NCBI RefSeq assembly: GCF_042453785.1
Contig: NC_091662.1
Coordinates: 563,001-627,000, forward strand
Direction: 5' to 3'
Source: Malus domestica
Lineage: Eukaryota > Streptophyta > Magnoliopsida > Rosales > Rosaceae
Length of the DNA stretch: 64,000 bases
In this document: positions 10,811 through 57,559 of the stretch, piece by piece
How the letters are laid out: the number at the start of each line of letters is the position of its first letter
Position numbering within the stretch: the first letter of the stretch is position 1
Position numbers and translations under genes: made by a program
The notes under the pieces: model-generated
Told to the model about the DNA's origin: nothing
Seen by the model: only the letters and a program-made list of their open reading frames with translations
The model's database searches: none

Positions 10811-10986
10811 TTCATTTAAAAGTACTCACAAAAATATTTTCCACACAAATTCTATGGTGATTAGAATGTTTCGAGTATAGGATATGTTTAGCTTTTTAAT
10901 CATAAAATCTTGATTTTTGTATTTTTTTAACCATAAAAAAATTCATGTGTTTTTGTTTTTATTCAGTATGAAAGTTGTTGTAATTA

Positions 10987-11251
10987 GACAATCATACCTG
11001 AAAATTAGCGGAGACCTACAATCTTACCAAAGTTTCTCTATCACGTGTTTACAATTATATTTGAAGAAATATGAACCTAATTTGATACAAGTTATAAAAA
11101 AAAATTCTTTATTGGTTAAGACAATCATACCTGAAAATTAGCGGAGACCTACAATCTTACCAAAGTTTCTCTATCACGTGTTTACAATTATATTTGAAGA
11201 AATATGAACCTAATTTGATACAAGTTATAAAAAAAATTCTTTATTGGTTAA
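10987..11251. repeat. Tandem duplication, two units of about 133 bp
   Basis: Unit 1 (10987-11119) and unit 2 (11120-11251) are virtually identical, differing mainly by the length of one adenine run. The unit begins gacaatcatacctgaaaatt and ends ttctttattggttaa. The near identity indicates a recent local duplication. It contains no recognisable gene. Confidence 0.9.
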
Positions 11252-11465
11252 GAGGAATTGAGATCCTCTCCACATCCCGCTATCTAGGCTGCATTCGAGA
11301 GTTTGAACACCATACCAAAATACAACCTTCATTGTGAGTGGAAATTCCAATCCCATTTTTGTCCTTATTGCATCTAGAGTTGGCGGGCTCAAAAATCCAA
11401 ACCACTCATATCAACACTTATTATCGAAAAGCTTAAAGGTGGATAAACATTCTTTACCGTCTAAG

Positions 11466-37843: not shown

Positions 37844-38533
37844 TGTTGGATTTTTGGATTGTCGGGCTCGCTCCACTCTAGCAACACCGATATTATCCCC
37901 AACTTTATCATCCGCTCAATCTGTCAGGTGTGAGGTTTTACACAAAAAAACCTCAGTATTAGTTAGGGTAGGGTAATTCTATTTAAACTCATTGGGTTTC
38001 TTTGAACCTACCGATGTGGGACATTTAACACTCCCCCTCACGTGTAACCTCATTTAGTGGTTCACACGTGGAGATCCATACATCAGTACACTCCGCCTCA
38101 CGTGTAACCTCATTTATTGGTTCACACGTGGAGATCCACACATCGGTAATTAAAACTCAGAGGTCGGCTCCAATGGAGTTCAAACTTGTTTTCAATCTTT
38201 TTCAGGAAGTGTCTTTTTCGGAACTTAGAGGCCGACTCTATGTTAAGAGTCCAAGCTCATTTCCAAGCCCTTCCTGTTGACAAGCCTTTAGGTCAACAAG
38301 GCTTTAGCTTGCACGGGCGGCGGGCCCGAACCTTGACTCTGATACCATGTTGGATTTTTGGATCACCGGACCCACCCCACTCTAACGATACCGTTACTAT
38401 TCTCAACTTTACCACCTACCCAATCCTTCAGGTGTAAGATTTTACCATAAAAGGCCTCGGTATTGGTTTGAGTAGGGTAATTATATTTAAACCCATTGGA
38501 TTTCTTTGAACCACCGATGGGGGACATTTAACA
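37844..38533 (-). mobile_element. Whole TRIM retrotransposon (terminal-repeat in miniature)
   Basis: 690 bp with two direct terminal repeats of about 185 bp (37844-38030 and 38349-38533), each TGTTAAATG...CCAACA when read on the minus strand. It is flanked by an exact 5 bp duplication, ccatc (37839-37843 and 38534-38538). Just inside the 5' LTR (minus-strand sense, so the right one) is TGGTATCAGAGTC, a perfect initiator-Met tRNA primer site. Before the 3' LTR is the purine tract GAGGGGGAG. The interior holds two copies of a roughly 60 bp unit (cctcacgtgtaacctcattta). No protein coding, as usual for TRIMs. The LTRs differ at many positions, so the insertion is old although structurally whole. 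Confidence 0.9.
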
Positions 38534-38538
38534 CCATC

Positions 38539-39141: not shown

Positions 39142-41727
39142 TCATCTGTTACCTGTTTGCTCGATATCTTTAAGAAGTCCGACTATCTGATGCATGCTTG
39201 GTCGTTTTGAGGGAAGGTCAGCTGTGCACAGATATCCAATCTTCAGGGCCTCCTCCATTTGGTCATCTGGTCCTGTGTCACGAACTTTTGGATCAATAGC
39301 GCTCGTCCCTTTGTTCTTCCTAATCAGTCCTCTAACCCAGCTCACCAAGGTTGCATCTTTCTCCTCGGGATAGTCATCGCCAAATGGCTTCTTGGAAGTA
39401 ATCAGCTCAAAAAGAACAACTCCAAAGCAATACACATCAGATTTTGGCGTTGGAGAATCATACTCGGACTGAGAAAACTCTGGCGGCATGTAGCCAGGTG
39501 ACCCTCGAGAGATCTCCTCATCCATACCGCTGCCAAATATCTTTGCCAGTCCAAAATCAGATAATCTTGGCTCTAAGTTATAGTCCAGATAAACACTACT
39601 AGCTTTAACATCTCTATGAATAATTGGAGGAGAGCAACCGTGGTGTAGAAATGCCAGTGCTCTGGCAGTGCCAAGTGCAATCTTGTGACGGAACCCCCAT
39701 GATGTTAACAACCCTTCAGAGCCAACATTTTGAATGCCATTGTTATTGTCTTCTTCCCAGGTATCTGTGCTCCAATCCTCTGTTGTTTGCAGTACCCCAA
39801 GCGGCAAGTCATGTAGCAAATTCTGTATATTCCCATTCTCCATGTAGTCATAGATAGCAATCCTTTGGTCCCCAGCTAAACAATATCCCGTCAATGGAGC
39901 AAGATTAGGGTGTTTGATTCGTCCGAGATACTCAAACTCTCTTGCAGCTTCCTGGTCTGTCAGTGTAGAACCGTGGACCAAAACTTTCACCGCTACATGA
40001 ATTCCACCCGGTAGAAATCCTCTATAAACAGGCCCGAATTTCCCTTCAGCCAAAAGGGTTCCTCGATCAAAGTTCGAAGTTGCAGATAAGAGATCTGCGA
40101 ATGTGAAATTCAGCAATGGCTTCTCGAAAATCACTACAGGTACTGAATTTGCTTGCTTAACATCTGCAACCCATGTTGTTGAATCAGTGTGGAAGGAAAA
40201 GGGGCCTGATACGCTTTGCTCTTCCTTGTGCGAGGTTTGTTTTACCTCCCACCTTCTGGTTTTCCTTCTGCAACAAACTGCTAGAAACAGCAGACCAGCT
40301 AGCAAGAATACCATTGAGAAGGTCAAAACCAAGGCAAGCTTTAGTACCTTGTGCTCCTTAGCCTTATTAGCTCGTGCTCCAAAAGGGCCCGGGTTTGCTG
40401 CAATGGGGCAGCTGTTTGTTGAACCAAAGAAAGATGCTTGAAGGGTTGCATTGGAAATTCCAGAAGTACATAGTGTCAAGTTATTGTAAGAGAAGTTGAA
40501 GCTCTCCATCCAAGGGAGTTTCTCCAAGAGAGACACAGGGATTTCTCCGCTCAAATTGTTGTGAGAAACATCGAAAACTTGGAGATTTCTCAAATTAAGC
40601 AATGGGATTTTGCCTATAAGATGGTTTTCAGAAAGATCAAGTGTGTTCAAGTTACTCAGCCGAGAAATTTCAGCAGGAATGCGACTGGTAAGACTAGATT
40701 TCGACAAGTTAAGGTACTCCAAACCAGAAAAAGTTTCCACACTTCTCGGGAATTCTTGCCTAGTAAATCTATTGTGTGCTAGATTAAGGTGTTTGAGATT
40801 CTGGGATTGATTCCAATGATGTAAAATTTCTCCATTAAGCTGATTTTCGGACAAATCTAAATAAACCAAACGAGACCAATTGTAACTAGCATTGAATTGT
40901 ACCTTCGAAATGTGGCCTTCAAACCGGTTCCTGCTAAGGTCAGCCACCTCCAACAGCTCCTTAAACACTCCCATCACTGAACCCTGAAACACATTCCCTG
41001 AAATGTTCAGAGTAGTAATGGAATTCATCTCCGAAAAATCGGAGCCCCGGCCATGAATCCCATTCCCAGCAAGGTTCAATACTTGCAGCTTAGGCAATGC
41101 AGCACCAAAACCAGCTGGAAGAGAACCGTTTAACCGATTCGACGAAAGGTCAATCCAAACCAAAGATTGACAGCTCAGAATTCCTGATGGGATGCTCTTC
41201 TCAAACGAATTTCCATTGAGCTTAAGAACTCGCAGGCTGGCAAGTGAGCTTATACCAGCAGGAATCTCCCCAGAGAAATTATTGCTGGAAACGTCGAGGG
41301 TTTCGAGCAGACCGAAGTTGCCAATGTTGTTCGGCAACGACCCGGAAATCTGGTTGTTGGAGAGAATAAGGTGCTTGAGAGAACTTATGCTCCACAAATC
41401 CGAAGGAAGACCGGTGATTTTGTTGCGGCTGAGGTTCAAAGTTTGAAGCTTTGTGAGCTTTCCGATGGTGGTGTCGGGAACCGGACCGGAGAGCTCCAAC
41501 CCGGAAGCCTCAAAGCCGATAACATCGTTGGATTCACAAGAAACTCCTTTCCATGAACAAACAGGTGCAGAGAAGTCGTAGAGACTGGAAGAAGAAGATG
41601 AAGAAAACGAACCCATTTTTTTCAAAAACTCAGAGACAAAGAACCCATCTGTATTGGGTTGTTGGGAAGCCAATGGATTCAGGAACAGTGAAAAAACCAG
41701 TAGAGAAGCAAAGAAATGAACACCCAT
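39142..41727 (-). CDS. LRR receptor-like protein kinase, At2g24230-like
   Basis: Plasma-membrane receptor-like kinase of unknown ligand, 861 residues in one exon. The ATG at 41727 opens a signal peptide ([20 protein letters not shown]). A Cys-containing cap (CSWKGVSC) comes next, then about a dozen leucine-rich repeats to roughly residue 420 ([30 protein letters not shown]). A transmembrane helix lies near residues 455-480 ([20 protein letters not shown]), followed by basic CCRRKTRRW. The kinase domain runs from about residue 545 to 855: glycine loop [10 protein letters not shown], catalytic-Lys stretch [36 protein letters not shown]. In the catalytic loop the usual Asn after HRDVKAS is Ser; I recall the Arabidopsis relative having the same change. 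Kinase activity may therefore be reduced. Confidence 0.95.
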
Positions 41728-42406
41728 TGGGAAAATAGTGCAGCAGAGAAAAGGGTGTGAGAAAGTTTAAACCTTTCTTTCTCTATCACTTTCTCTCACT
41801 AGAACTTCAGAAGCAGCATTGCAGTAGCATAAATGGTTCTGGTCCCATTTCAGAAGTAATTGCTTGGGGACTCTGCAGCCCCATTAAATCCAACGCACAG
41901 TGTAAAGTGGGTTATCGTTTTTGGAGAAGAGAAGGCTGTTAGGCTAAAACTCCCCCCAAAAACAAGAATTTACATGCAGGACTTTATTGGGTTGGTGGTC
42001 CTTGTTATCCTCCCTAAGAAAAACCCAAAAAAAAGCTCTGGGAAAATAAGCCAATGGTTGAAACAGTTCATGCAAATAACAAACTTATTGCGTTCTCAAA
42101 GAGCTAAGGGTTTTCTGGGGTTTTGACCTTTGAGAGTGGGGGAATGTGAGCTCACCTTTTGGTGGTTTTGCAGGTCCACGACCATGAAATCCTGCAGAAA
42201 CAAACAACAAAAGAAGAGGAAGCAATTTTCTCTCTGTGTGAGGAGAAGGAGAAGGAGGAGAAGGCTCTAGTTTTTGCTGCATATATATTTTTTATAACAA
42301 AAAAACAAGACTGTCATGTGTTTTTAAATGAAATGAAAACAAGGAGACTGTGAGGACTGAGGGGGGAGAGAGAGAGGGAGGGAGGGTATATTGGGAAAGA
42401 AGTAGA
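41728..42406. other. Promoter and 5' leader of the receptor kinase gene
   Basis: Upstream flank of the minus-strand kinase gene. It includes pyrimidine/purine-rich stretches (for example aggaagcaattttctctctg near 42220-42260 and a GA-rich block at 42360-42390), typical of plant leaders. No separate gene seen. Confidence 0.45.
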
Positions 42407-42613
42407 GGACAAGGATTGTCTGCCCTCCCATTTTTTATGTTCTCTCGTGCCCTCCTGTTTTGTGTGGTCACAGTTAAACCACGTCAACATTTTATATTGT
42501 TTTTTATAGAGATAATAAGACAAAAATAAATAGTAATATAAAATGTTGAGTGGCTTAACCGTGACCACATAAACAGAAGGGCACGAAAGGAGGGAGGCAG
42601 ACAATCCTTGTCC
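42407..42613. mobile_element. MITE with long inverted repeats (about 85-90 bp arms)
   Basis: 207 bp almost entirely made of two inverted arms: ggacaaggattgtctgccct on the left and its complement on the right, continuing through gtgccctcctgtttt, gtggtcacagttaa and acattttatatt. The loop is only about 25-35 bp. No clear target duplication. A transcript would fold into a near-perfect hairpin. Probably Mutator- or hAT-derived. Confidence 0.8.
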
Positions 42614-45426
42614 GGAAGAAGAACGGGTAGACAGAAGTTGAGCTTCATAAATGAGAAAGGCTTAATGGAGGGAAGTAAGTGTCTTCCATTTGGGTTGGTG
42701 GGAATTTAGTGATGTTCTTCATGGAGTGTTGTTTTCTGACCACTAGATTCTTCTTCTCTAATTGGAAGTAGGTTGATTTCTTTATCTGATTCAAGTCCAA
42801 TTGGAAATTGCCAATTTTGCCATTCAAAATGCTAATCACCATCTTTCAATGGTGTTTTGATTAGAATACTGCCAATTAATAGTGTGTTCCTATGTATTAT
42901 GTAATAACAATTGGTTTTACGTCTAAAAATTTGAGTAGGGATGTCTGACCACATTATTTGTAAAACACTTCTTATAAATATATGAACACGTATATATTGT
43001 CTCATTCATTTTTATGCTAATTTTACCTAATATAAGAATTAGCCTAATCGGAAAGCCATATCAAAATATCTATCATATTGACGTTATTTTTTATTTTCAA
43101 AAGTATCAACCTTTAGAAAACAAAATTTCTAGTTTTGTTTTAGCAAAAGAGAAATTATGACCTTCTCCTCAACTTTTCGTAAAGCATGATGGCCAATCAA
43201 TTCCTACATTCATTTCTTTTGCTATTTAAATGTACCAATTTTCACTTTAAATACTTAAATATGAACTCATGATATGCCCTTAACAATGTTATAAGTTGAT
43301 CACATGAAGGGAAGTATTACAATCAAGCAAGACCGGTTATGAGTTTTCAAATATCCGGGATAAAATTTCAAATGGTGTTCTTTGTAGATTGATTAATAAA
43401 TATTATAATGGATTGAAAAGCAAACTCATACTTATGGAGCCATGCGTTGAGCACATAGCGAACTATTCTTTTGTCTTTTACTAAAGAATATCGGGTGTTC
43501 ATCGCTTTAAGTGACATACGTCTATTTTTGGAGGGGATCACCTCTGTGGGTATCCCTATAAAAAATTAAAAAAAAAAAAGAAAAGAAAAAGCAAACTCAT
43601 ACATACTAAATGCAACAAATACCACTAAACACTTTGATAATGAATCAAATTGTTTACTATTTATACAAATATAACATAAGTTCATATAAAGTACCTTAAT
43701 ATTTTTGGCGCCTGATTTTTTTTGGGCCTGGGACAATCATCATGCCCACACTGTTTCAGGGCCAGCCCTGCAATCAAAACAAGTTCATGGTTCTCATTTT
43801 GGTAAATTATAAAGTTTGCAACATTATATTTGCTAAATTAGGAAGTAAAGTAATGTGATGGGGCATATATTTCAATGGATTAGCTAGAAATGTTTGGTGT
43901 GAGGTACCCTTTTGTTGACTTGTACATTTCAAAAAGGTTCTCCCAATGGATTATGAGTCCCACCCATTTGCTTAAACAAGTGATATACCCCCTCCTAACC
44001 CATGATCACCATTTAAGTATACTTAATGGTGGGTCTAGTCTTCATAGTAAGATTTAAGGGATTATGATTACTCTCGCCTACAATCAATCATCTCGACTGT
44101 TTGTTGAAGAAAAACTTACTTACATTAGCTATTTCACTTTAGTAATATCCCAAAATAATAACGCAACATCATACAACATGTTATTGATCTGAAATATTAT
44201 AACGGCGGAATACCGACATAAGTCTCTCTCATAGCGGGTTAGTCACATGATTAGAATTAAAAAAAAAACATATATATAATATTATATTTCTCCATATCTT
44301 CCATTCCATGTACTCTGCTTTCTTTTGAGGATTTGGTTTGGGGTGTGACTGCATAATGAAAGTTAATAGCACATAATTAATGTTTTCATGCTGATTAAGA
44401 CACCTTCCCCTTAATTAAACTCAAGGCACATGAGGGCCTTGACAAGTTTATACGACGACCCTTGTCCTAGTGGATTAAGAAAACCCCAAATTATTTGTAC
44501 ATGGTAAAGGGTCCTCTTTGTCAAAACCTTAGGCGATATCCGAAACTGTTTTTAGGATGGTTAAAAGCGCTTTCAAATAACTAGAATTGCTTATGATTGT
44601 ATTTGATGGGAATAATCATAAAAAGGTTTGAGATCATATGTAACAAAGAATGTTTTTAGGTTGTATTTGTGTGGATGCATTTCCAATCCGCCTAGATTGC
44701 TTTTTATCATTGTATAGAAAGAGGGAATTGAGCAGAAAGGGAGCACGCCAAGACCCGACAAGAAAGAAAATGGAGGAAGATTGCATCAAGTGGTGATAAT
44801 TTGCACCAATTGAGGGATTAAGGAGAGGAGTAATAAAAAGATCCACCGACCCACACAAGGACTAATGATAACATTTGGTTTCATGACGTTGCCAATTTGC
44901 CAGCTGCAAACTTATTATTCCTGAGACAATTATGAATTTCCTTTTTAGCACTAGCGAATCATACGATAGTGGGCAGGGAAGATTGAAATGTCTGTATGAG
45001 TTTTTTCGGCTTCTAAAAGATTTGACTACATTGACAAAACCACCGACTGATCCCTGTTTCTCAAAAAAAAATAAAAAATAAAAAAATCCAAATCTATATT
45101 AGTGAACACATAACCCCAGCCACTTTTCTGGTTGTTTCCCAGCGAAGCCTCGCGCATGACGTTTAAAGAGTAGGCAAATTTTCGGGTGTAACAGGAGGTA
45201 TTTACCCTCTCTCCAACTTTCGCCAGCTTTCTCATCACGGGAGGAGGATATACCCTGGTTACACGCTAAGAAACTCTCCTAAAAGTTGCACCCATGCAAA
45301 GGATGGATGCGTCGTTAAAATCTTATGATCGTCACTGAAAAATGGAAAAATTAAAATCTGACCGCCTCGACTCCTTAATAGAGGTCATGGGCGAGCAAAT
45401 GAAAAGCGTCTGGGATCGATTGGGAG
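42614..45426. other. Gene-free AT-rich intergenic DNA
   Basis: About 2.8 kb with no supported gene. A fragment resembling a hAT terminus (cagggccagccctg) lies at about 43757-43770 next to an otherwise featureless region. Open frames are short and lack family signals. Confidence 0.45.
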
Positions 45427-49900: not shown

Positions 49901-52900
49901 GACCCATAATTCAGGATCCAAGACCCTGGACACTCAAGACCCGGGATTCCAAACCTGGTGACCGAAATGTGAGACTCGTGACCTGAGACCTAAGACCTGG
50001 GAACAAACCTGAAAACCAGGACCACAGATCCAAGACCCAGACCAAGTAGTCAGAACACTGGACCAAGGTTCAGGACCCAAGACCCTGGCCGAGGGCACAG
50101 GCTAAACATGTTGTATAGGTTCCTTAAATGAATCCCACCACACTGGATAGATTAACCAAACAAGTAAATTTCAGGGCTCAATCTCATCTTTTCAAATTCC
50201 ACCATTTTTTTTCTTTGTTCCTTCTAAATATCTCATCCAAAGGGAAACTTTTAGCAGAAAATGATCATAATCTGTTTGCTAAACATGGCACATTTAAGAT
50301 CCATAAAGTTTGGTTACACCAACTGTAGAAAATCCAAATTGTGAAGCATTATGAGGCAACCAATGCAAATCTGGAAGCACTATACATCAAGGCCAGCTAC
50401 TGGCTAGTGAAATCTCAAGTTATCAACGCACCTGGTTGTCGTCAAGGGAGTACCACATGCCACTTGATGTGCGAACATAGCAATAATAATGGCCAGAATA
50501 GGTGGTAGCCCCACAATGAACAAGAACCCCATAAAGTGTATATTTCAAATCTCCTTCCTGTCAAGTAGAACGTAAAATTAAGTTAAAATACAAAACCATG
50601 ATGTGAAAAGCACGAAACATAATCAAATCACCAACATATGACTCTTGGCTTCCTCTAATGCGTTGTCCTGATCATAAACCTAATGGTCCAGATTCTAATT
50701 CCTAATTTAACCTTTTTTCAGCAAAAAAAAAAAAAACCAAAATTAAGATACAGTTTTCAACAAGCATTGGGCAAGATTATGAAATATGAAATAAAATAAT
50801 AAGTAAACAGAATGAGTGACTTGAACAATCTAATACCACAATCTGTGCTTCTTTTAGATTGCTTCATTTGTAAAATAAAGAAATTTAGAAGTAAAGCTTG
50901 CATGGCTAAAAAGCTTGAACACTTACATAGGAACCACTAACAAAGGGCTTTAAATCCAATGTGGGGCCAAATTTTACATGTCTGTCAATTTTTCGCCCAG
51001 GATCATGTGCACGAAATCGTTTCAAATGGATGGTAAGTACATAAGGAGGCTTTTGAACAGTCATTTGTTTGAGAGCCCGAACTTTCTGGTTGCATCGTTG
51101 GCACTGATATTGCCTTTCCCCTCCATCTAACTGTTCTGCTGCAGTAAAGTTTCCAAGTGCTTTTTGCAAGGAATCTGCGTTGAATATTTCAAGACTTAAA
51201 TCTAAGAATGGGTCAAACTTGTTGGAGCAATAGGAGCACTGCATACACTTGACCTGAATAATAATAAAAAGGATCATGAAACATCAGCAAATATTTAAAA
51301 TCTTTACCTGTTTACAAAAAAGATAAACTCCCACACACTACAGTATCGCAAAAACCATAAAGTCTTACCTGGCTTCGAAGGCGACCGCCAAAGATCTTGT
51401 GTACCAAGCTCTTCTCATAGGCACTTGGGGATTCGCTTGGCACACCAGACGGTAAACAGCATTTATGCATGGACTCCAGCAAGTTTACCATGTATTCATG
51501 TGCATCCTCCTGTCTAGACTTAGTGAAAGTTCGAGATATGCCTTATCATGTGTCAAGGATTCCAACTTCCAAAGCATAGAAGCAATAAAATAGACCCGAT
51601 ACCACACTTAAAAACTGACCACTATTCTTAACCTTACGAAAATGTAAAATTGGAATGGTGAACACAAGAAACTTCTTGATAAACACTCCTTAAACTTGTT
51701 ACTAGTTACTAGTTACTACACAAAAATTAACAGAAGAAAAGAAATAGGAAGTTAAAAATGAATAATAGCAAAGACACTAGTTATGAATCTTTAGTAAGGG
51801 AATTGCTCCAATCAGATCATTTGAGTATAGTTATCCCAAAGAAATTTGTTTTCTTGCTTATAAAACAACAATTTTGACTGTAAACTATAAAAAATATTCA
51901 TAGAAGATTTTTTTTTTTTAAATTGATTTTTATTTTTATTTTACTTCTCTTTTGACACACTTGGTAGTCTAGCTTGTCGAATAAATAAGAACTTGATCAA
52001 CAAAGAAAAGGTTCTATGGACAAACGTGGAGTCCAATGATTACGCCCATCTATGTATGGCAGAAGTATATCACCAGAAACATTTCAAGGATACATTGTAA
52101 GTTAATGACTAGATCCTTTGGCACCAAAATTCTCCCAGTGGATTGTAGAGCAAGACTAACATGCTTCTGGATAGCACATAAAGCACAAAACCCAGCAATA
52201 TGGCCTGTAAAAAGAACAAAATCAATCAAATTAGCTATGCACATAAATTCAAAATTTCATACATGCACATGTAAGCATATATGAGTGCATGCTTACCCCA
52301 CTTTACAAATGGTACACTATGAAAGTTTTTTTTGTTCATGTTAATTCCTTCGATGCAAACACACAGACAAAAAAATGTCATATTTATTTGTCTATATTAA
52401 CTTGTTGCAAGCACATCCTAAGAAAGGGGAAGTGGAGGATTGTCGGAGGAGTCCATACATGAATTTCGATGCTTTCCACTTTGCAAGTATGCAGCTAAAG
52501 GCTCAGTATATGTCAGACACTGCAACACTGAATTGAGATAACAAGTGTTTCCCATATTCCTCAAACCGGCACCCTGAAAATTACACACACCATTTTCACT
52601 GTCAAGCAACTAGGAACCGAAACAATAATCGGAGAACAATCAAATGCAGCAATAGCATTACCACCAAAACATCACATAACAGAGTATCGACTATGAAATA
52701 ATTGAAATTGGATAAACTATATCAACTGAAAATTGATTCGACACAAGAAGCCAAGCAACAAACTTTGAATTCAGCTACACAGAACATATAACAAGCCCAA
52801 ATCAAAAAAATCCAAAATGGTTCAATGCAAATGCGAAAAGATTCAATTCAACAATATTGGATGGGGAGTTAGAGAAGAAAGCGATCAAAGGCAACACTTT

Positions 52901-53201
52901 GACTCACAATTCTCCGGAAGGTGATGCCAAAGCTGAGCTCCGGATCGAACCCGTTCTCCAAAAACTCGGACCCATCCCTTTTTTTGGCACTCAAACCCGA
53001 CTGACCCTGACTAGAGCTGCTTCCGCCGCTGCTTCCGTGATTCAAGGTCTCGAGCCGGAAGTCACCGCCGCCAGTGTTAAACCCATTGAAGGGCTTCCTC
53101 GCTCGGTGGAACTCAATACGCCTCTGAAGCGGATTTGACCCAGTTTCCGATTCGGCCATTAGATCCGCAAACCCATCCGATTGTCTTTGGAGCTCCGCCA
53201 T
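46936..53201 (-). CDS. UBP23: Ubiquitin-specific protease (USP/C19), UBP23-like
   Basis: Cysteine protease that removes ubiquitin from proteins. Eleven exons: 53201-52908, 52573-52459, 52204-52094, 51541-51369, 51253-50927, 50557-50432, 49420-48701, 48591-48472, 48380-47666, 47302-47209, 47095-46936; together 2,955 nt, 984 residues. The catalytic domain spans about residues 99-400: Cys box [13 protein letters not shown] (Cys about 109), zinc-knuckle pairs CMQCSYC and CQRC, His box [20 protein letters not shown] (His about 363). The long tail is Ser/Pro-rich, with a polybasic nuclear-localisation-like stretch ([10 protein letters not shown]), and ends SGNHPLRI. Intron 3 (52093-51542) is a U12-type GT-AG intron. 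Intron 6 (50431-49421) holds a degenerate minisatellite. The tail is longer than I remember for Arabidopsis UBP23. Confidence 0.95.
49870..50095. repeat. Degenerate GACC/CCAGG-rich minisatellite in a UBP intron
   Basis: A run of loosely repeated 10-14 bp words such as ccaagaccctgg, aagacccggg, gacctaagacctggg and aggacccaagaccctgg over about 225 bp, far richer in C and G than the rest of this intron. No unit is exact enough to fix a period. The open frame across it (49699-49986) has no family features and is not called. Confidence 0.6.
51542..52093 (-). other. U12-type GT-AG intron in the UBP gene
   Basis: On the minus strand the 552 bp intron begins GTATCCTTGA, the minor-spliceosome donor, and ends ATCCTTGACACATGATAAG. 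ATCCTTGAC fits the U12 branch consensus TTCCTTRAY at 8 of 9 positions and its adenosine lies 11-12 bases before the acceptor. There is no polypyrimidine tract, as expected for U12. The join makes CIS and continues in frame to [10 protein letters not shown], the conserved UBP sequence. Confidence 0.85.
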
Positions 53202-53922: not shown

Positions 53923-54648
53923 CAATATGTTTATACCATATTTAGGGCCTCGTATTTAGATCTCGTACAAATACTCAGGGGACTTAAATGTAATTATGGG
54001 ATAAAGGAAGGGGCAAATATGTAATAAGTGAGGAGTCCTTATTCTATAAAAGGACCCCTCACCCTCACAATTGGAGGAGGCCTCACTCTCACTCTCAAAG
54101 GCCATTTCTGGAGCCTTCTCAGCCCTTTCAACGCTCTCACTTCCAGAGCTCTCTCTCCCCCTCACTTCTCAGAGAAATATAATACAATCAGTGTGGACGT
54201 AGCCCAAACCTTGGGGTGAACCACGATAAAATCCTTGTGTTCTTTGTGTTCTTCGTGTTCTTGAGCGTTTGTGCAGATTCACGGTCGGATTTACGTTATT
54301 CCAAGACCATCCGGTTTTGTGCATCAACATTTGGCGCCGTCTGTGGGAATCGACACAAAAAGTTATGTCGGTTCTCTCTCAATTTCTCACCTCCGCTGTG
54401 GATCTGCAAAACCAAAATCAAATCGAAACCCGAACCAAAAACCCCCATCTCTCTCTCTGTCCTCCTCGACCGAATTTCTCTCCTCAAATTGGACACAAGA
54501 CCTCATTCTCCTTCTTCTTCACCTGAAGTACCAGTCTTCCAGACCTACAATTTTCCAATTTCGCCCTTCAGTTCAGACATGCCTGTCCCAAACCGATAAC
54601 GTTGAGGAAGGAACCCAGCCACACCCAAAACGCCGTCGTTTACCCAGG

Positions 54649-55330
54649 ATGATCGTGAGAATGTACGGCCGTAGCAAGGGAGGGGGCCTACAGGCCGCCG
54701 CCGACGCCGTCTATTCTTGCGACGTCGACCTTGATGGAGGCGCAGGGGTTTGGGGAAATGATGGAGCCCGTGGACGAGGTCAATTTCGCGCTGGATGGAC
54801 TCCGGAAGGGTCAGCCGGTTCGGATCAAAAGGGCTAGCTTGCTGTCGTTGCTGTCTATTTGTGGCACCGCGCAGCAGACACGGCTTCTCAGGACTCAGGA
54901 TATTATTTCTTCCCGTGCAAGCTCAATGTTCGTTGGGGGCAAAGGCCTTCTCAAGGCGCTGTGAAGAACAAGGATTGCAAAGAGGAACTGAACGGCGTCG
55001 TTAAAGCAAGCAAAGAACGGAATAACAACCGTTCATTTGGTAATCTGGAGATGAGGCCCAGAGGTGGATAGATTGACGGATCGATCCACCATCACCATCT
55101 TCATGACAGCGATTTGGAGTTGAACAGTCCGCCAAGTTTGACAAAGCAGTGTCTTGGGCAGCAACTATTCCGAGACCACCTTTGCTAGCAGCAGCAGCAA
55201 ATGATCCTGTTAACCCCAGGCCTGGTACTCTTCGCCACGCTGTCATCTAGACCAAGCCTATCTGGATTGTGTTCAAAGCGAGACATGGTGATACAGTTGA
55301 AGCAGGAGCTCACAATGAAGTCTTTGAACA
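54649..55330 (+). pseudogene. Transduced host-gene fragments (WAPL-like and pectate lyase-like) inside the LTR element
   Basis: Within the LTR element, about 54649-54910 encodes stretches very like plant WAPL (cohesin-release factor): the N-terminal MIVRMYGRSKGGG and, after a gap, DEVNFALDGLRKGQPVRI. About 55198-55330 resembles pectate lyase: NPRPGTLRHAVI and RDMVIQLKQEL. A further coding-like block at about 55335-55600 is not identified. The pieces are partial and lie as a mosaic, so none is a working gene. Introns appear absent, consistent with capture from RNA. They are dead passengers of the element. Confidence 0.75.
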
Positions 55331-56025
55331 ATCCCTCACCTTCTTGCAGTCGATCTATCCGTCCGTCTCGGCCCAGTGCCTTTCCAAGAGGATTTTAAGA
55401 GAAAGACTAGAGCACTTCCTGGCCCTGAACCCGTCCAGCAACTCCGGCTACGTCGAAAAACCTCGGCGGTCTCAACTCCTACTGCGACCTCTCCTCGCCT
55501 CCGACGTCGTCCTCTACAATCCCTCCGACCTCGCCACCTGGGTCGACCCCCCTCCTCATCGAGTTCAACCACCAGCCCCTCATCTCCACCAACTGAACCT
55601 CGAAACATGGTGGTCCCTCGAAATCCCGAAAAATGGTCCATCAACATTTGTGCATGCATTTCTCCAGACATCTTTCTCCAGATCTCACAGATTTTACAAC
55701 TGGAGTACACTAGCTAGTGTTCAAAGGCAGTGGCGGACAAAGCAAAAGGAAAAGAGAAAGAAAAGGGAAAGTAAAAGCAAAAGCAAGTCAGTGTGTCTGG
55801 AAGTGGAGAGATCAAAGAGGGAACAGAAAAGAAAAAAGATCATGTTGTTGGGAGAATATTTCAGAAAGCAGAAAAGAGGAAGGCAAAAAGGATGCACATG
55901 GAGACACTGCCAAAACAAGGAATAAATACCCCACCCGAATGATGTAATTTATTTTTATTATCTTTCGGAGACATCTGTATAAACCCCATCAGAGGGTAAT
56001 ATATACATAAACCCCATCAGAGGGT

Positions 56026-56068
<43 letters not shown>
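56026..56068 (+). repeat. Poly(A) tract inside the LTR element
   Basis: About 40 adenines directly after a duplicated phrase (aaaccccatcagagggt twice, 55980-56026). Its position downstream of host-derived sequence suggests the tail of a captured polyadenylated RNA; a simple A-run is the alternative. Confidence 0.8.
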
Positions 56069-56070
<2 letters not shown>

Positions 56071-56179
56071 AAAGGAAAAGCCCAAAACAAATGGGCTGAC
56101 ATGTTATGGAGGGCAAAGGCCCATAGGCCTGAAATAGCACCAACCAGGTCATCAAAAGTACGCCCAGTACTCCAAATTA

Positions 56180-56525
56180 TACATGAGCACTACTCATGTC
56201 ATTCATACATAAACATTCATGAGCATCACTCATGACAATCATACATAAACATTCATGACCATCATTCATGTCAACATTCATGAGCATCACTCATGTTAAC
56301 ATTCATGAGCATTACTCATGACAACATCCATGAGCATCACTCATGTCAATCAACATAAACATTCATGAGCATCACTCATGTCAATCAGCTTCAAAAGCTT
56401 CATTTACAAAAGCTCCAGCTTCGAAAGCTTCATTTACAGAGCTCTAGCTTCAAAAGCTTCATTTACAGAGCTCCAGCTTCGAAAGCTTCATTTGCAAAGC
56501 TTCACCTACAAAGCTTCAGTGCAAG
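56180..56525. repeat. Two minisatellite arrays inside the LTR element
   Basis: First array (about 56180-56385): repeats of cattcatgagcatcactcat with short spacers. Second array (about 56387-56525): repeats of agcttcatttacaaagctcc and variants, about 30 bp period. Both lie in the element's 3' interior and have no coding meaning. Confidence 0.85.
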
Positions 56526-56692
56526 GTATACAAATACCGCCTTAGAACAACCGCCACTTCGGCCCATACATGGATTCAATTTGAAGTCTCCAGCCAACAG
56601 ACTCTATTGACCGAAGACTTGGGGGACTACATTATGTACCATATATTGGGCCTCAACTGGGCCTCATGAAAAATACTTGGGGGACTCTAGCC

Positions 56693-56934
56693 CATGATTT
56701 ATGTATTAAGGAGCGAACCCTTATTCTATAAAAGGGACTCCCTCACTTTTATTGAAAGATCACCCATGATTTATGTATTGAGGAGCGAACCCTTATTCTA
56801 TAAAAGGGACTCCCTCACCACCATTAGAGAGCATCGCCGCCTACTGAGCAACTGTCTCACTGCGAGCATCAACTCTAACTCATCACTTATGTATTGAGGA
56901 GAGAGCCCTTATTCTATAAAAGGGACTCCCTCAC
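56693..56934 (+). repeat. Three copies of a promoter-like module inside the LTR element
   Basis: About 50 bp units at 56693-56747, 56764-56818 and 56886-56934, each with cccttattctataaaaggga and ctccctcac. The same motif, including the TATAAAAG box, occurs in the LTR itself (near 54030-54062), so these look like repeated pieces of an LTR core promoter. Confidence 0.8.
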
Positions 56935-57559
56935 CTTCAAACGCCACAAGCCGAGCCAACCAAGGCAACACAAGCTACAAGCAGAGCGGCCTCGCAACAT
57001 GTGCTACTTCTAGTTGAGCATCATTTCAGATTGGGCACCGCCTCATATCAAGCATTAGTTCTAGACGACATCTAGTTACTTCGGCCCACACATGGACTGA
57101 ATTTCAAGTCTCCAGCCAAAAGACTCTCTTGACTGAAGACTTGGGGGACTACTGTTTATACCATATTTAGGGCCTCGTATTTAGATCTCGTACAAATACT
57201 CAGGGGACTTAAATGTAATTATGGGATAAAGGAAGGGGCAAATATGTAATAAGTGAGGAGTCCTTATTCTATAAAAGGACCCCTCACCCTCACAATTGGA
57301 GGAGGCCTCACTCTCACTCTCAAAGGCCATTTCTGGAGCCTTCTCAGCCCTTTCAACGCTCTCACTTCCAGAGCTCTCTCTCCCCCTCACTTCTCAGAGA
57401 AATATAATACAATCAGTGTGGACGTAGCCCAAACCTTGGGGTGAACCACGATAAAATCCTTGTGTTCTTTGTGTTCTTCGTGTTCTTGAGCGTTTGTGCA
57501 GATTCACGGTCGGATTTACGTTGTTCCAAGACCATCCGGTTTTGTGCATCAACACAATA

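Follow-up and report, generated by a model that had tools for sequence, protein, structure and literature searches.

The window, that is, the whole 64-kb stretch of DNA that we analysed, carries a complete LTR retrotransposon at positions 53928–57554, along with several recognizable genes. A full-length U5 spliceosomal RNA gene lies at 43438–43553 (+) and scores 64.5 bits, where the gathering score is 40. An 874-codon open frame at 39145–41766 (−) combines leucine-rich repeats with a protein kinase domain, and is thus a receptor-like kinase. There is also an exon with the ubiquitin C-terminal hydrolase domain (PF00443) at 50909–51283 (−) and a possible start codon at 53201 (−), and the two perhaps belong to one gene. 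The 5′ LTR of the retrotransposon is 727 bp upstream of this possible start codon, and the insertion may sit in the promoter of the ubiquitin-hydrolase-domain gene.

The retrotransposon is 3,627 bp long with an interior of 2,823 bp; its features are all given here on the (+) strand. Its two LTRs, at 53928–54329 and 57153–57554, are 402 bp each and run from TG to CA (LTR start TGTTTATACC, LTR end TGCATCAACA). They are identical at 401 of 402 sites, and the sole mismatch, at LTR position 371, is A in the 5′ copy and G in the 3′ copy. The target-site duplication CAATA lies at 53923–53927 and 57555–57559. The first-pass annotation had reported two 402-bp LTRs with one difference, an exact 5-bp duplication, caata, and an element running from 53928 to 57554; all of this held, the coordinates to the single base. 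A 402-bp repeat with 99.75% identity and a matching duplication is not a chance event. The TATA block of the 5′ LTR, CTATAAAAGG, is at 54044. The primer-binding site TGGCGCCGTCTGTGGGAATCGA (54332–54353) starts two bases past the 5′ LTR and, when reverse-complemented, looks like the 3′ end of a tRNA, which we take to be plant tRNA-Lys(UUU). At the other end, a purine-rich tract, GACTTGGGGGACTAC (57138–57152), abuts the 3′ LTR and is probably the polypurine tract. The locus thus has everything expected of an intact LTR unit: near-identical LTRs with TG..CA ends, a duplication of 5 bp (within the range of 4–6 bp), and a primer-binding site and polypurine tract in the right places.

Within the 64-kb window, we found no second copy of the LTR or of the interior. 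Exact-pattern searches gave no matches, either with the TATA block and the primer-binding site in viral contigs or with the primer-binding site and an LTR stretch in prokaryotic contigs; this was expected of such collections and has no bearing on copy number. A word search of the literature for the letters of the primer-binding site did not find them. Since the LTR begins with TGTT and ends with AACA, we considered the Rosaceae TGTT/AACA subfamilies of PMC5659011. As that source describes them, however, those elements end in TG..TT or AA..CA, while the ends here are TG..CA, and the assignment was rejected.

To look for retroelement proteins, we took all stop-free frames of at least 40 aa that overlap 54330–57152 and scanned all 43 of them against Pfam. 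Two reached the curated cut-off, and these match WAPL and DELLA. No frame among the 43 matched gag, protease, reverse transcriptase, RNase H, or integrase, and this bears out the first-pass claim of an interior devoid of gag-pol; the gag-pol domains that define an autonomous Gypsy or Copia element are thus missing from these frames. Rows below the cut-off (DUF3558, MEIOB, DUF5965, DUF3669, AP3D1, SR-25, Vma22, OAD_gamma, and Ribosomal_S21e) were rejected as chance matches. The element resembles the LARDs and TRIMs of pear and apple (PMC4668562, PMC5659011) in being an LTR unit without coding capacity that inserted recently, but it differs in size from the elements described there. It is larger than the 2.1- to 2.7-kb elements with 203- to 244-bp LTRs that are named TRIM in PMC5659011, and its 2.8-kb interior falls short of the LARD interior, which in the definition of PMC4668562 is usually >4 kb. 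With Bs1-type gene-carrying elements it shares the presence of pieces of unrelated host genes between the primer-binding site and the polypurine tract.

The interior opens with a leader-like sequence (54354–54724) that has no Pfam match above the cut-off. Near its end, the short peptide MIVRMYGR (54649–54672) resembles the start of a WAPL protein. The leader is followed at 54725–54907 by a fragment of WAPL, a cohesin-release factor. This fragment covers positions 3–64 of the 344 of profile PF07814 (Pfam E = 5.2e-12) and confirms the WAPL-like stretch of the first pass. The fragment sits in a 101-codon open frame, 54659–54961, and this frame has a weak match in PDB to the Wings apart-like homolog 4k6j (E = 0.041).

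A fragment of a plant pectate lyase follows at 55200–55314, interrupted by a single in-frame stop and a single frame break. Its identity comes from a PDB match to Jun a 1 (1pxz), with E = 2.0e-4 when the stop is read as X and E = 5.6e-7 when the next frame is joined as well. The frame up to its stop gave no PDB matches, and in Pfam even the joined peptide does not match a pectate-lyase family. The pectate lyase-like stretch of the first pass is therefore supported by structure-database matches, but only with the stop read through.

The third piece, at 55483–55578, is a fragment of the DELLA domain of a growth regulator (positions 37–68 of the 69 of profile PF12041) with two frame breaks. From the single frame 55494–55547, DELLA is recognized in Pfam at E = 2.9e-5, with 24.3 bits against a cut-off of 23.8, and in PDB this frame finds GAI only at E = 0.54. 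With the three frame pieces joined, by eye, the Pfam match improves to E = 8.2e-11, and PDB returns GAI (5e-5) and RGA (1.3e-4). This domain lies inside what had been described as another coding-like block of unidentified nature, and that block now has a recognized part. Having read the interior as captured host sequence, the first-pass annotation made this reading depend on matches to host genes; the pieces found here match WAPL, pectate lyase, and DELLA proteins or domains.

The remaining stretches gave no identity: Pfam and PDB searches with frames from the leader, from between the pieces, and from 55600–56026 did not name a source. Over 54908–55199 and 55315–55482, the WAPL and DELLA matches already described are the only ones above the Pfam cut-off, and a PDB search taken up to E = 1 gave nothing for 54838–55068 and 55328–55714. 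The 15 PDB matches of 55072–55185 (best E = 0.19) are mostly to the starts of unrelated chains, and we read them as the effect of a histidine run. Apart from DELLA, the frame 55251–55922 matched alpha-protein kinase 1 (E = 0.31) and a galactosyltransferase (E = 0.53) in PDB; both were rejected as chance.

All three pieces are in sense orientation relative to the element, as they must be if mRNA was copied, an outcome that random orientation would give 1 time in 8. From the leader to DELLA, G+C is 48–61%, against 33–39% in the flanks. Downstream, a run of 42 A residues at 56027–56068 is followed by the A-rich GAAAAGGAAAAG. No other run of A or T in the window exceeds 19, and the 42-nt run matches the poly(A) run of the first-pass annotation. 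No identified coding 3′ end adjoins this poly(A). The sequence before it, 55601–56027, has a G+C content of 40%, the same as that of the element's repeats after the poly(A), so this part may be the element's own rather than the end of a captured mRNA.

The 3′ region beyond the poly(A) is rich in repeats. Short tandem repeats take up most of 56171–56512, of the CATTCATGAGCATCACTCATG type up to 56387 and then of a 29-nt AGCTTC type. These are followed at 56556–56686 by a degenerate second polypurine tract with the start of U3, 81% identical to 57078–57209 (E = 4e-29), and at 56684–56937 by three 66-nt blocks that repeat the TATA region of the LTR (TATA at 56726, 56798, and 56914). These duplications of U3 and promoter sequence probably arose when reverse transcription slipped or jumped close to the LTR in earlier rounds. 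For the repeat-rich 3′ region we also considered Retand (PMC11963269), a comparison that would depend on pol.

What could have brought pieces of three genes into one LTR unit? We propose, with a probability of roughly 0.7, that this is a non-autonomous LTR retrotransposon without gag-pol, which carries a mosaic of host mRNA fragments acquired by template switching. We favor template switching since it accounts jointly for the sense orientation, the presence of pieces from several unrelated genes, the poly(A) run, and an LTR, primer-binding-site, and polypurine-tract frame that is intact. Template switching by way of microsimilarity between the RNA of an LTR element and an mRNA is a described mechanism (PMC5408686), and exon-only cargo from several genes is known in TRIMs, according to the examples in PMC4717578. 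The A-rich GAAAAGGAAAAG beside the poly(A) could have served as such a microhomology. Among the points that count against this reading, pectate lyase is recognized only if a stop is read through, and the poly(A) has no identified coding 3′ end beside it.

The second of these points bears on the origin of the poly(A), which may have been the tail of an mRNA that was captured, may belong to the element, or may be part of a nested insertion. If it was nested, the gene pieces would still have been acquired by template switching, and the poly(A) would mark an L1-like LINE-type insertion inside the element. L1-like retroposition that leaves a poly(A) and a target-site duplication has been reported in dicots (PMC4838847), and there is an 11-nt exact match, AAAAGGAAAAG, at 55744 and again just past the poly(A), which could be read as the duplication around an insertion of ~0.3 kb. 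However, both places are A/G-rich, and a match of that length occurs in 6–8% of locally shuffled sequences (1.2% with shuffling of the whole region). Moreover, Pfam recognized no LINE and no gene in the frames over 55714–56068. We regard a nested insertion as unlikely.

Capture could also have occurred without template switching, either at the DNA level, through ectopic recombination or insertion of the element into a gene-carrying Pack-MULE or Helitron, or by read-through transduction. Gene pieces are typical cargo of Pack-MULEs and Helitrons. The first-pass annotation had described the WAPL-like and pectate lyase-like stretches as without introns, but each piece is short enough to come from one exon and need not reflect intron loss. 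DELLA genes are mostly intronless, and the third piece is hence uninformative on this question. Against such routes stand the sense orientation of all three pieces, the poly(A) after them, and the single clean unit of LTRs, primer-binding site, and polypurine tract around them. Read-through transduction would, in addition, require three separate neighbors, and no inverted repeat of at least 14 nt frames the cargo. The review PMC13317346 files maize Bs1 under read-through transduction and treats template switching apart. The first-pass annotation had invoked template switching as in Bs1; the mechanism is in print and remains the best available explanation, but the parallel with Bs1 does not agree with that classification. 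On balance, capture by any of these other routes seems to us quite improbable.

Under template switching, the events could have run as follows. The RNA of an ancestral element would have been packaged together with host mRNAs. During minus-strand synthesis, the 3′ region of the element would be copied first, followed by a jump into a poly(A) tail via the adjoining A-rich stretch. In one or more rounds, reverse transcriptase would then have jumped onto mRNAs of DELLA, pectate lyase, and WAPL before returning to the leader of the element. The resulting mosaic RNA would have retained the primer-binding site, the polypurine tract, and the LTRs, and could thus be copied and integrated by proteins supplied in trans. 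The copy seen today would have inserted ~0.1 My ago, with one or more additional rounds in between.

The date of the last insertion comes from the LTRs. With 1 difference in 402 sites and a rate of 1.3e-8 per site per year, as used in PMC4668562 and PMC5659011, it is ~0.096 My, with a Poisson range of 0.002–0.53 My; the slowest rate that we tried, 4e-9, raises the upper bound to 1.7 My. We then compared this age with the decay of the cargo. The pectate-lyase and DELLA sequence, 261 bp in all, contains three frame breaks and one stop. Assuming that indels arise at 0.1–0.2 of the rate of substitutions, 0.03–0.36 indels are expected in 261 bp since the insertion (at 1.3e-8). Because three frame breaks are observed, the mosaic was probably assembled before the last move. 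Capture is therefore probably older than the last insertion, and the mosaic would have been copied since. The frame breaks could instead be copying errors made at capture, or unseen junctions, and this would weaken the case for an older capture. In soybean and Medicago, all but two of the gene-carrying TRIMs covered in PMC4717578 had two or more copies. The first-pass annotation had called the element very young. This is right for the last insertion, at ~0.1 My; capture is not dated by the LTRs, and the broken frames suggest that it is older. It had also concluded that a partner element still supplies the machinery. Something did supply the proteins at the last insertion, presumably a partner element, but this speaks for that time and does not support the word "still."

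Could the cargo have been kept for an effect on the host? It might form a gene for a chimeric peptide, as proposed for Bs1, or give rise to small RNAs against WAPL, DELLA, and pectate-lyase genes. A stop-free frame of 224 codons crosses part of the DELLA piece and is longer than the frames that 98% of 500 block shuffles produced (P = 0.016), and the TATA block of the LTR is joined by three more. However, the only ATG of the 224-codon frame is near its 3′ end, and two of the three pieces, pectate lyase and DELLA, are broken. No ATG frame of the cargo is longer than 76 aa, which makes a chimeric protein unlikely. Judging from sequence, we see no sign of a cargo product, and we consider selection for a host effect very unlikely. 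A further, highly speculative variant, to which we give hardly any credence, is that a young family, of which this element would be one copy, is multiplying and spreading the WAPL-pectate lyase-DELLA mosaic in fixed form, together with the additional internal TATA blocks, and that transcripts of the mosaic give rise to small RNAs that would dampen these host regulators in trans.

The closest precedents are the soybean TRIM GmaRetroS15 and maize Bs1. Like the element described here, GmaRetroS15 is a non-autonomous LTR unit with a 5-bp duplication and pieces of three unrelated host genes, which in GmaRetroS15 are 160–346 bp (PMC4717578). The gene-carrying TRIMs in that source are 1,172–1,449 bp, whereas the element here measures 3.6 kb, has LTRs of 402 bp, and contains a long poly(A) and duplicated U3/TATA blocks. 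For the cargo of GmaRetroS15, that source demonstrated that introns are absent. Bs1 is likewise an LTR element that holds segments from three genes of its host, in that case an ATPase, a xylan endohydrolase, and a beta-1,3-glucanase as listed in PMC13317346, instead of WAPL, pectate lyase, and DELLA. According to the same source, the Bs1 segments make up a transcribed and translated chimeric gene, a further difference from the present cargo with its short ATG frames. Host-gene sequence inside full-length LTR elements is also known from rice and sorghum (PMC3726574). The examples shown there are annotated genes in elements of 9.9–15.8 kb, in contrast to the 3.6-kb element here, in which several genes are each represented by a short piece. 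For rice, the paper counts 1,318 of 7,043 full-length elements that encode non-TE proteins, and its abstract states 672 captured genes. Judged by titles and the starts of abstracts, none of the papers among the matches listed deals with such an element, either with the WAPL/pectate lyase/DELLA combination or with a Rosaceae case.

Multi-gene cargo in small LTR elements is already in print for Bs1 and GmaRetroS15. Since plants thus have documented events of this kind, the general interest of the case is modest. Its value is as a specimen: capture junctions decay over time, and a recent carrier with an identifiable mosaic of three genes and a long poly(A) is a good place to study them. The case also illustrates that LTR identity dates the last jump, not the capture.

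Elsewhere in the window, we noted repeats of other kinds. A tandem duplication at 10986–11253 has a period of ~133 bp, and its copies are 99% identical. Two direct repeats of 188 bp, 37844–38031 and 38348–38534, share 80% identity and lie 0.5 kb apart. Finally, the sequence at 42407–42613 is a near-palindrome, 74% identical to its own reverse complement, and is possibly a small inverted-repeat transposon.
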